The notes beneath the pieces are model-generated. The model was given only the letters and a program-made list of their open reading frames with translations. It was not told the DNA's origin and did no database searches. From an uncultured Flavobacteriales bacterium (GTDB lineage Bacteria > Bacteroidota > Bacteroidia > CAIKAF01): 64,000 bases of DNA. The translations under genes were made by a program, and so were the position numbers. The first letter of the stretch is position 1. Every line of letters starts with the position of its first letter. The stretch is taken from positions 1 through 64,000 of the forward strand of contig CAIKAF010000020.1 of NCBI GenBank assembly GCA_903825395.1, written 5' to 3'. This document shows, one piece after another, positions 11,987 to 61,775 of the stretch.

Positions 11987-12140
11987 GGGCGGCTGCGGGC
12001 TTTCACCGGTTGTCCGCGGTTGGCGGAAGGCTGGCCCAGCGGGCTTGCGGTGGCTCCTAAAGTCGCCTCCGCGCCACGCGGGCCAGGCTCCGCCACCCTT
12101 GCGTGCAACCCGGTTCAATCCCTGCCGCGTGCCCCTCAAT
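11987..12140 (+). repeat. Structured GC-rich repeat, subfamily I, copy A
   Basis: Begins GGCGGCTGCGGGCTTTC directly behind the dehydrogenase stop and ends near AATCCCTGCCGC. Core GCGGTGGCTCC...GTCGCCTCCGC at about 12047-12072 can form a hairpin. Flanking arms CTGGCCC (12031-12037) and GGGCCAG (12080-12086) extend it, and GGCGGA/TCCGCC closes it further. The same layout with different arms recurs at 35708, 42614, 51840, 55631 and 61628. No coding function is evident. Confidence 0.85.
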
Positions 12141-12171
12141 CCTTAAAATAATTCAAAAGAAATGTACTGGC

Positions 12172-12323
12172 GATGCCGCCCGCGCCCCCGACAGAGGCGG
12201 CAGTGCGGACGCAGCCGCCCGCTTGTACCCGGTTGAGGAGGCGACTTTAGGAGCCACCGCAAACCGCTGGTACAAGCCGGGCGGCGCGGCCAAACTACAG
12301 CCGATGGCGGGAAATGGCGCCCT
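12172..12323 (-). repeat. Structured GC-rich repeat, subfamily II, copy G
   Basis: Carries the family core on the opposite strand (GAGGAGGCGACTTTAGGAGCCACCGC read in two halves at about 12235-12260). The arms are unlike copy A: CCGCCCGCTTGTACC at 12214-12228 pairs with GGTACAAGCCGGGCGG at about 12269-12284 with one bulged C. Outer flanks (CGCGCCCCCGA near 12180, GGCGCCC near 12315) are shared only with the copy at 30282. It lies between copy A and the haem-operon promoter. Confidence 0.8.
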
Positions 12324-30281: not shown

Positions 30282-30440
30282 GGCCGCCGCGCCCCCGATG
30301 GAGCCGGCATGGACTGAACGGGAAAGAAACACGGCCTTTGCCGAGGAGGCGACCAGGGGGAGCCACCGCAGGCAATAAGGCCGGTTGCTTTGCCGGAAGG
30401 CCATACAGGTGACAGCGGGAATAGGCGCCCCATTCTCCCT
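30282..30440 (-). repeat. Structured GC-rich repeat, subfamily II, copy H
   Basis: Contains the family core in the same orientation as copy G (GAGGAGGCGACC...GGAGCCACCGC, about 30342-30369). Its arms are CGGCCTT-TGCC (about 30332-30342) and GGCA-AT-AAGGCCG (about 30371-30383). Outer flanks GCGCCCCCGA (near 30290) and GGCGCCCC (near 30424) match copy G. It fills the gap between the DUF2723 stop and the promoter of the RNA-binding protein gene. Confidence 0.8.
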
Positions 30441-35707: not shown

Positions 35708-35856
35708 GGGCGGGTTTCCGGGCTTTCTCCGGTTGTCCGCGGTTGCCGGAAGTCCGTTGCAGCGGGCTTGCGGTGGCTCCCAAGGTCGCCTCCGCGCCTC
35801 GCGCAACGGGCTCCGCCACCCTTGCGGGCAACCCGGTTCAATCCCGCCCGCGGGTG
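35708..35856 (+). repeat. Structured GC-rich repeat, subfamily I, copy B
   Basis: Same outer motifs and core as copy A, but arms CCGTTGC (35754-35760) and GCAACGG (35803-35809). Both sides changed together relative to copy A, so pairing is kept. It lies in sense orientation 16 bases behind the infB stop and fills the gap to the convergent rnhB gene. Confidence 0.85.
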
Positions 35857-42613: not shown

Positions 42614-42767
42614 TGGGCGGCAAACGGGCTTTCCAGGGTAGTCCTCGGTGTTGGGTTGCGGGGCTTGCGGGTTTGCGGTGGCTCCCAGGGTCGCCTCCGC
42701 ACCGCGCAGCCCCAAGCACCCAACCCCTGTGGGCTACCTCTGTCAATCCCTGCCGCTGGCCTCTCAA
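42614..42767 (+). repeat. Structured GC-rich repeat, subfamily I, copy C
   Basis: Same core and flanks as copies A and B but arms TTGGGT (42651-42656)/ACCCAA (42718-42723) and GGGGCT (42660-42665)/AGCCCC (42708-42713). It lies between the 3' end of mnmA and the sucC promoter, antisense to both genes, so it is not strictly tied to sense-strand 3' ends. Confidence 0.83.
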
Positions 42768-51839: not shown

Positions 51840-51986
51840 GGGCGGCTGCGGGCTTTCGCCAGTAGTCCTCGGTGCTCAGCCTGCGCTGCAGCAGGCCAAA
51901 CGTAGCTCCCAAGGTCGCTCGTTTTGCCGGCGCAGCGCCGCCTCGCCCCTGTGGGCTACTTGGCTCAATCCCTGCCGCATCGCCTC
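51840..51986 (+). repeat. Structured GC-rich repeat, subfamily I, copy D (divergent core)
   Basis: Starts GGCGGCTGCGGGCTTTCGCC three bases after the stop and ends near AATCCCTGCCGC. The core stem has changed on both sides: AAACGTAGC (51898-51906) against GCTCGTTT (51917-51924), with the loop TCCCAAGGTC conserved. This is the most divergent copy and keeps pairing through paired substitutions. Confidence 0.82.
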
Positions 51987-54972: not shown

Positions 54973-55084
54973 AAATAAAAGTTCTGTTTTCACGGTATAG
55001 AAACATCTTCATCAAGGTGTTTCCTTAAAAGGAACTGAGGGGGAGGACGTCATATTTTCTATTCCAAATCCTACATTGTATTCC

Positions 55085-55292
55085 ACAATAATGTCACCCC
55101 TACGGGGTTCTGATGTCTTGATCTCCAATGCGTTCTACAATAATGTCACCCCTACGGGGTTCTGATGTCCTGAGCTCCAATGCGTTCTACAATAATGTCA
55201 CCCCTACGGGGTTCTGATGTCCTGAGCTCCAATGCGTTCTACAATAATGTCACCCCTACGGGGTTCTGATGTCCTGAACTCCAATACGTTCT
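55085..55292. repeat. Four tandem copies of a 52-bp unit containing CCCCTACGGGG
   Basis: Units begin at 55085, 55137, 55189 and 55241, each starting ACAATAATGTCACCCCTACG. Units 2 and 3 are identical; 1 and 4 differ at a few bases near the end. There are no unique spacers, so it is not a CRISPR array. Each unit contains the short palindrome CCCC-TAC-GGGG. A related single element lies at about 57979-58020 on the opposite strand. Confidence 0.9.
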
Positions 55293-55630
55293 ACTTTGGT
55301 CTTATTTCAAGGTCTCTAAGGCCTCGGTCATGCAACCCATAGAGGGCAGATGCTTCTAACATGTCCACTTTGGTACAACAAATATTGAACGACAGGAAAT
55401 GCAAATCCATGATAACAAACAAGTTATAAAACAGTCCAAAAAATGGTGGACAGGTCAGGATCTTCATAAGGTGTTTCTTTGTGCAAACTTGAATGTAGAT
55501 TTGGCTGTTGCTTAGAATCCAGACGGTAAAAACCTCCTGTTTCAGGGCGGTGTTTTTTCAATTGCAAAGCTTGGATGTACAAGGGGGTTTCCTTTGGGTT
55601 TGGTCCTGAGATTGGTGTAGGAATGAACCA
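55293..55630. other. Gene-free stretch between the tandem repeat and structured repeat E
   Basis: I see no supported gene here. A minus-strand frame can be drawn through it into repeat E, but the translation has no recognisable domain. A 21-base segment at 55460-55480 resembles 55005-55026 (ATCTTCAT-AAGGTGTTTC), so the tandem array is flanked by an imperfect direct repeat. Confidence 0.4.
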
Positions 55631-55778
55631 GGCCTGCAGCAGGGATTGAACCGGGTTGCCCGCAAGGGTGCCGGAGCCTGGCCCGCGTGGCGCGGAGGCG
55701 ACTTTAGGAGCCACCGCAAGCCCGCTGGGCCAGCCTTCCGGCAACCGCGGACTACCGGTGAAAGCCCGCAGCTGCCCA
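55631..55778 (-). repeat. Structured GC-rich repeat, subfamily I, copy E
   Basis: Minus-strand copy about ten bases behind the VWA gene stop, in sense orientation to that gene. Its arms (CTGGCCC/GGGCCAG) are the same as in copy A, and the core GCGGAGGCGAC...GGAGCCACCGC is intact. Confidence 0.85.
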
Positions 55779-57728: not shown

Positions 57729-57822
57729 GGTTTAAAGGTTTGAGGGGTTATACGCTTCACACCCGTGTAGGTTCAATCGAACATGAAAAAAAATCAGGCT
57801 TGATTCTTTTTTCTGTTTTAAG

Positions 57823-57902
57823 GTATTGAAAATCAGATTCATGCAACAAGAAATGATGTGGATTGAATGTGCCAAACCGGGAAGTAAGGGTGGGGGTGAA
57901 TG
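57823..57902 (+). repeat. Imperfect 80-bp direct repeat, first copy
   Basis: GTATTGAAAATCA at the start and a near-identical final 45 bases (ATTGAATGTGCCAAACCGGG, then AAGTAAGGGTGGGGGTG) match 58014-58092 at about 80 percent by eye. It lies upstream of the VWA gene; no coding function is apparent. Confidence 0.8.
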
Positions 57903-57978
57903 TGGCCGATGGCTTGTCCGTTTTTTTTACCACAAAGATTTCCAAGTCTGCGCAAAGGGCACAGAGGGCGTTATCAAG

Positions 57979-58020
57979 GGATAAGCCCCGTAGGGGTGAT
58001 ATTAGTGTAGAATGTATTGA
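57979..58020 (-). repeat. Single CCCCGTAGGGG element related to the 52-bp tandem units
   Basis: AGCCCCGTAGGGGTGATATT followed by AGTGTAGAATGTATTG corresponds to the reverse complement of the unit at 55085 (CCCCGTAGGGGTGACATTAT, TGTAGAACGCATTG). It runs directly into the second 80-bp direct repeat. Confidence 0.7.
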
Positions 58021-58092
58021 AAATCAAGTGCTTGCAACAAAAAAGATGCACATTGAATGTACCAAACCGGGAAGTAAGGGTGGGGGTGGATG
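58014..58092 (+). repeat. Imperfect 80-bp direct repeat, second copy
   Basis: Second copy, offset 191 bases from the one at 57823. It ends 17 bases before the gpsA stop. Between the two copies lies ordinary-looking sequence with an ACCACAAAG...CACAGAG stretch and the CCCCGTAGGGG element. Confidence 0.8.
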
Positions 58093-58109
58093 AGCTCGAA
58101 GCTAGCAGT

Positions 58110-61627: not shown

Positions 61628-61775
61628 GCCTGCGGCAGGGATTGAGCCAGGTAGCGCGCAAACCTACAGTTGCCGGGGCCGCGTGGTGCGGAGGCGACCT
61701 TGGGAGCCCCCGTAAACCCGCTGGCCCCGCCACCTGTAGGTGCGTACTACCGGCGAAAGCCCGGCTGCCGCCCAA
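61628..61775 (-). repeat. Structured GC-rich repeat, subfamily I, copy F
   Basis: Core GCGGAGGCGACC...GGAGCCCCCGT with new arms: CTACAG near 61664 with CTGTAG near 61734, and GGGGCC near 61675 with GGCCCC near 61723. It lies on the minus strand downstream of the tRNA-Met terminator. Confidence 0.83.

Follow-up and report, generated by a model that had tools for sequence, protein, structure and literature searches.

A large, apparently undescribed superfamily of Y1-associated hairpin repeats in Bacteroidota

Within the 64,000-nucleotide stretch of an uncultured Flavobacteriales genome analysed here (the window), a segment beginning at position 11987 recurs as a foldable repeat whose stem arms differ between copies and stay complementary, which raises the question of what keeps the arms paired: a transcript, a transposase that moves the repeat, or a protein that binds it as a hairpin. 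An earlier note on this DNA had described six such elements, each a hairpin core with arms, and all six were confirmed within a few bases, with the arms as it had read them, both in the sequence and by a covariance model built from 41 copies (R1), in which they scored 110-146 bits. The count was too low, R1 detecting eight copies in the 64-kb window, of which two on the minus strand (12181-12322 and 30288-30430) had been overlooked. The core and arms stood as described, but the extent was too small, since folding of the copies revealed that the entire element of ~143 nt forms a single imperfect hairpin, or near-palindrome, whose outer motifs pair with each other. This hairpin, with a very stable predicted fold, is composed of constant outer feet (GGGCGGC..CGGGCTTTC..GGTAGTCCGC on the 5' side with GCGGGCTACC..TTCAATCCCTGCCGC on the 3' side), a constant apical core (GGTGGCTCC-NNNN-GTCGCCTCC) and arms that vary nearly freely under strict Watson-Crick pairing, and GTAG (or GTTG) of the 5' foot pairs with CTAC (or CAAC) of the 3' foot inside the stem, 23 nt from its end.

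Copy A (11987..12129, plus strand, 144 bits in R1), a 143-nt hairpin with arms CTGGCCC/GGGCCAG, starts 5 bp past a stop codon, and beside it lies copy A2 (12181..12322, minus strand, 62.9 bits), which has the core of A, differs from it in arms and feet and is inverted relative to it. Copy G (30288..30430, minus strand, 49.2 bits) belongs to a subfamily with a 5-nt core spacer (GGTGGCTCC-CCCTG-GTCGCC). Three plus-strand copies follow: copy B (35708..35852, 129 bits) between convergent genes, with arms CCGTTGC/GCAACGG; copy C (42615..42757, 136 bits), with arms TTGGGT/ACCCAA and GGGGCT/AGCCCC; and copy D (51840..51979, 110 bits), with arms GCGCTGC/GCGCAGC, starting 2 bp past a stop codon. On the minus strand, copy E (55635..55777, 146 bits) has the arm type of A and lies 10 bp past the stop codon of its right-hand gene, and copy F (61631..61773, 145 bits), with arms CTACAG/CTGTAG and GGGGCC/GGCCCC, lies 75 bp downstream of a same-strand tRNA-Met. 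Elements frequently occur as neighbours separated by tens of bases and inverted relative to each other, as at 11987-12322 in the window and at C23:150708/150936, L060, L062, L074, L340 and L343.

The window's genome (G000, 2.6 Mb) carries many more copies: 51 were found in a 464-kb sample (18% of the genome), which extrapolates to ~290 genome-wide and greatly exceeds what chance would yield, BLAST with copy A returned at least 40 full-length copies, and R1 run over the whole genome yielded at least 150 candidates, the best 150 all scoring 94-154 bits. Among 52 sampled copies, 48 were intergenic, three overlapped predicted ORFs and one lay at an edge, the gene context being tandem for 24, convergent for 16 and divergent for eight. 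Of 31 co-directional copies, 30 started 2-47 bp past a stop codon, and all 15 co-directional copies in tandem gaps were closer to the 3' end of the upstream gene than to the next gene. Such positions, together with the stable fold, are what would be expected of a structured 3'-end RNA, a reading offered by the earlier note; on this view the plus strand would be transcribed after the upstream gene, with protection or termination of that gene's mRNA as the outcome. However, among the 24 copies in tandem-gene gaps, 9 run antisense to the gene upstream, and divergent genes flank 8 of the 48 intergenic copies. The sequence 5' of the hairpin is rich in T, with T-runs before the hairpin and none after it, and the elements are therefore not ordinary intrinsic terminators. 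An Rfam search of the window returned the tRNA-Met alone, with weak best matches at the element (E 0.37-0.95) and no family to which it could be assigned.

To separate RNA from DNA as the paired form, the arms themselves are informative. Across the 41 copies, 92.6% of cells paired compared to 71.5% in shuffles, 36 of 44 pairs had changes on both sides, and 337 double-change cells retained pairing, relative to 101.6 ± 7.3 in shuffled alignments and 68-109 with slid partners; the covariation score was 0.503 against 0.139. Arm identity between copies had a median of 38% over 16 nt, whereas complementarity within a copy had a median of 86%, and the arms thus do differ and remain complementary, as had been noticed from the window alone. 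Were pairing selected in RNA, G·U would be tolerated and A·C would not, but the variable arms displayed no such difference, with 2058 Watson-Crick pairs, 19 G·T and 22 A·C (P = 0.76; all mismatches scored alike), a balance that did not change when the count was limited to well-paired copies. The unrestricted count was left out, because it is raised by T·G mismatches that are conserved close to the core. Ten tRNAs from the same sequences, analysed as a control, contained 192 Watson-Crick pairs, 18 G·U and 0 A·C. The equal rarity of G·T and A·C implies a strand-symmetric constraint, as for a DNA hairpin or cruciform or for a process that copies one arm onto the other, and, as far as sequence comparison can tell, favours DNA over RNA as the form under selection. 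With no Rfam family, and with G·U no commoner than A·C in the arms, the 3'-end RNA is disfavoured, and we regard it as very unlikely.

Covariation within one genome is insufficient evidence of selection, since arm types can also be spread by transposition and recombination; the earlier claim that paired change marks selection on structure therefore did not follow from within-genome data, and it gained its footing once orthologous copies were compared with those of the sister species (G003), in which the flanks are 5.2% diverged. Both flanks of 28 G000 entries (one a duplicate locus) were located in a single G003 contig, and the element was present in both species at all but one of them, in one case as a remnant, the exception being a longer, unalignable interval. 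In the 23 intact pairs, 6 of 1171 paired arm sites had changed (0.5%), compared to 6 of 207 unpaired sites (2.9%, Fisher P = 0.0045) and 142 of 2755 positions in the flanking 60 nt (5.2%), so that the arms were about tenfold more conserved than the flanks. No near-identical copies were observed at different sites, the best pair reaching 97.2% in G000 and 95.1% in G003; these are not recent duplicates of a known IS or REP family, an outcome that the earlier note had named as one that would overturn it. The lack of near-identical copies and the sharing of sites between G000 and G003 indicate that no recent movement is seen. Pairing kept at fixed sites without recent duplication is not explained by selection for transposition alone. 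It is chiefly for this reason that a host role is considered, and these comparisons support the view that the pairing is conserved in place by selection.

Pairing could also persist without selection if template switching at the palindrome copied changes from arm to arm, a mutational artefact that would suit both the strict Watson-Crick pairing, with wobble not preferred, and a single block change in copy B between two more distant genomes, G001 and G005, in which the left arm had come to match the right arm as its exact complement. If correction between the arms acted alone, double changes should predominate and accrue at the neutral rate, and the G000/G003 data are the opposite: single changes outnumbered double ones 20 to 1 in the aligned pairs (two of them decayed), and paired sites changed more slowly than unpaired sites, which makes this explanation highly improbable. 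Two decaying G000 copies (C29:130716-130847 and C23:70222-70364) differed from the other pairs in having many changes between G000 and G003, and one of them carried compensated changes.

We further compared the window with G001 and G005, whose DNA is 68-81% identical to that of G000 in aligned blocks. Seven of the eight window sites (A, A2, G, B, D, E and F) were occupied in one or both. Sites A2 and G were occupied in both genomes, with arm differences that were compensated, while the arms were largely replaced at A (occupied in G005 too, with other arms), at B (orthologs in G001 and G005, each with other arms), at E (replaced in G001 and G005, identical in G003) and at F (orthologs in G001, G005 and partly in G003); copy D had orthologs in G001, G005 and G003. 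Copy C was found in G003 but was missing in G001 and G005, where the interval was 144-147 bp shorter, and a G000 copy at C20:66636 was missing in G001, where the interval was 158 bp shorter. Presence or absence of the whole unit (144-158 bp) at two sites suggests past movement; the flanks at the empty sites are highly diverged, and exact target-site duplications are not definable from them. Copies A and E share an arm type in G000 and have unrelated arms in G005, which suggests that whole elements may have been replaced by recombination or re-insertion.

Candidates for a moving agent of the kind proposed in the earlier note, a Y1 (RAYT) transposase, are present in the genome. G000 contains two RAYT-like genes, one encoding 210 aa (P0001; DHFH, YIHQNP) and the other 184 aa (P0002; DHIH, YIKNNP), which scored 68 and 56 bits, respectively, against the NCBI model of the REP-associated tyrosine transposase, both below its cut-off of 80, and P0002 weakly matched the solved TnpA_REP 4ER8 (E = 0.0022). 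The sole IS200-like gene of G000 (L035) is of the subclass-1.2 type with Y--NQ--HH, the subclass-1.2 signature being used as defined in PMC6006769. Superfamily copies adjoin RAYT-like and subclass-1.2 genes, both within the genus and elsewhere in the class in genomes that bear the element. At these Y1 loci, which were selected in element-bearing genomes, one orientation rule held throughout (22 of 22, or 18 of 18 once likely orthologs are merged): upstream copies lay on the gene strand and downstream copies were inverted. At ordinary G000 genes this rule held in 49%. For 24 subclass-1.2 genes from nine genomes, 14 nearby element matches were observed versus 3.3-3.9 expected. The expectation was taken from control stretches totalling 394 kb, and as some of these had been picked on contigs already known to contain the element, the density test is conservative; one gene in G008 (L138) had a copy on each flank. 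Repeats of other kinds also sit at the Y1 loci, which calls for caution in reading the association. No Y1_Tnp or REP_Tyr_transpos match was detected in the assemblies of G005 and G014, which may have gaps, and G009 likewise had no detectable Y1 gene; since G005 and G014 carry many copies, a present-day partner appears not to be needed everywhere. An association with RAYT genes only was considered and set aside: G005 and G014 weaken it, and the subclass-1.2 loci extend it to a second type of gene. Y1 genes were present in 114 of 149 genomes of the class, which leaves class-wide co-occurrence of element and Y1 gene with little weight.

These observations bear on a further possibility, in which the repeat serves the host as a DNA structure (a cruciform or hairpin to which a nucleoid, topology or repair protein binds, for instance) and is passed on vertically, the Y1 link being ancient or incidental. 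It would agree with the presence of the element at seven of the eight window sites in species sharing ~70-80% DNA identity in their genes, with the conservation of the arms without movement, with the strand-symmetric pairing and with the persistence of the element in genomes lacking a detectable Y1 gene, but the superfamily brackets Y1 genes in a fixed orientation and at a density above background, and the whole-unit differences at two sites suggest earlier movement; we consider this reading unlikely.

Of the three readings that had been put forward, the REP-like element moved by a Y1/RAYT transposase is the best supported, given that Y1 genes are bracketed under a fixed orientation rule, and its relation to known systems is close in several respects. 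REPINs have been described as a pair of conserved inverted ends separated by a spacer that matters through its length and its capacity to pair, with compensatory changes being common (PMC3116915, Bertels and Rainey), and compensatory arm change as a principle is accordingly not new. As in the REPIN/RAYT systems of Pseudomonas and enterobacteria (PMC3116915, PMC8049555), the elements are extragenic, number in the hundreds, have inverted conserved ends that form one hairpin with a variable, compensated stem, include a dominant arm subfamily, and bracket a Y1 HUH gene in the manner of a REPtron. Unlike those, the element is 143 nt long with a conserved apical core, lacks close duplicates, the best pairs giving no sign of recent within-genome replication, and occurs in some carriers (G005, G014; assembly gaps possible) in which no cognate RAYT was detected, and because of the latter two differences we file it as REPIN-like and not as a REPIN family.

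Other relatives were also compared. Canonical REPs carry GTAG at the foot of small hairpins, whereas here GTAG/CTAC lies within a long stem. Double-foot REPs of TnpA_REP subclass 2.4 (PMC6006769) likewise have a 5' GTAG and a 3' CTAC on one hairpin but are short, while the present element has ~20 more conserved bases outside GTAG on each side and a fixed apex core. Atypical secondary structures, without GT[AG]G and of weaker structure, have been reported beside TnpA_Y1 subclass 2.6 genes in Bacteroidetes (PMC6006769), and these resemble our repeats in being multi-copy, non-canonical hairpins beside Y1 genes of Bacteroidota; compared by description, they differ in that the genes here are RAYT-like (YIHQNP, YIKNNP, YIINNP) and subclass-1.2-like (Y--NQ--HH). 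With IS200/IS605 and subclass 1.2, the likeness is that Y1 HUH genes with a Y---Q--HH signature adjoin the element in several genera, and the difference is that the element carries no gene. TnpA_Y1 subclass 1.2 has been reported without REP or IS ends (PMC6006769), and the bracketing suggests a candidate substrate for this IS200-like TnpA of Bacteroidota. Relative to the literature consulted, the family itself, its length, its apical core, the GTAG within the stem, the figures for DNA symmetry and in-place conservation, and the subclass-1.2 link appear new.

Taken together, we consider it probable that the family consists of miniature, non-autonomous, REPIN-like DNA elements that were dispersed by Y1 transposases long ago, are now quiescent and are retained for their DNA structure. 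Dispersal would have proceeded as a single-stranded hairpin, with a Y1 transposase (RAYT-like or IS200-like subclass 1.2) recognising the feet and core, and under such recognition only the pairing of the arms, and not their sequence, would matter. Movement in G000 would have stopped or become very slow, and the hairpin would now be kept by selection on the DNA structure itself, through some host role; selection on the DNA fold is here a conclusion drawn from comparison. In a bolder form, which we put forward as speculative and rather doubtful, the hairpins would be domesticated chromosomal DNA structures, that is, hundreds of cruciform-forming sites with host-selected pairing, inherited since the genus began and originally spread by a subclass-1.2 TnpA, in which case the element would be the missing substrate of that functionally unassigned enzyme. 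REPIN studies have mostly been conducted in Proteobacteria, and it is unsettled whether the hairpins serve the transposase, the host or neither. The combination of variable arms and stable positions allows selection on the fold to be told apart from selection on sequence and from movement.

The distribution of the repeat extends well beyond the window's genome. A search of related genomes, as the earlier note had proposed, detected the family in all six examined genomes of the genus and more weakly outside it, and a broader model (R2) detected relatives in 28 of 149 genomes and, at the genus level, in 17 of the 100 genera sampled within the class. Three MAGs, one of Sphingobacteriaceae, one of Sediminibacterium and one of another member of Bacteroidetes, contain the exact core as part of genuine elements; a core match in Rhodococcus (L186), where nothing but the core matches, was dismissed as chance. 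The repeats constitute a large, real hairpin-repeat superfamily of Bacteroidota that is apparently undescribed, and searches of published papers for the element sequence returned chance matches only. A phage- or plasmid-borne element is unlikely, with no match among phage and plasmid records. Some distant relatives (L065, L066, L068, L069, L284 and L285; G008, G012, G010, G023, G063 and G131) are 70-90 nt long and have the same feet without the long arms and core, and are possibly an ancestral or minimal form.

Other repeats were observed around the Y1 genes. L035 is flanked by a repeat different from the hairpin element, CCCCGTAGGGGTG; a unit of ~52 bp with CCCCGTAGGGGTGACATTATTGTAGAA lies on both sides of this gene and may be its own repeat. 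This unit occurs in the window at 55071-55330 and 57820-58099, both as a tandem array and dispersed (9 in 464 kb). RAYT-like genes carry short REPs of their own besides the element. Four of them (L093, L098, L112 and L115) contain in-frame insertions resembling short GTAG-type REPs (e.g. repeated VETQYFASP or AMVDSGATARGALTTVGG), a feature already reported in TnpA_REP subclass 2.4, and a short REP, TAGAGACGC, which is absent from the 464-kb sample, surrounds RAYT2.
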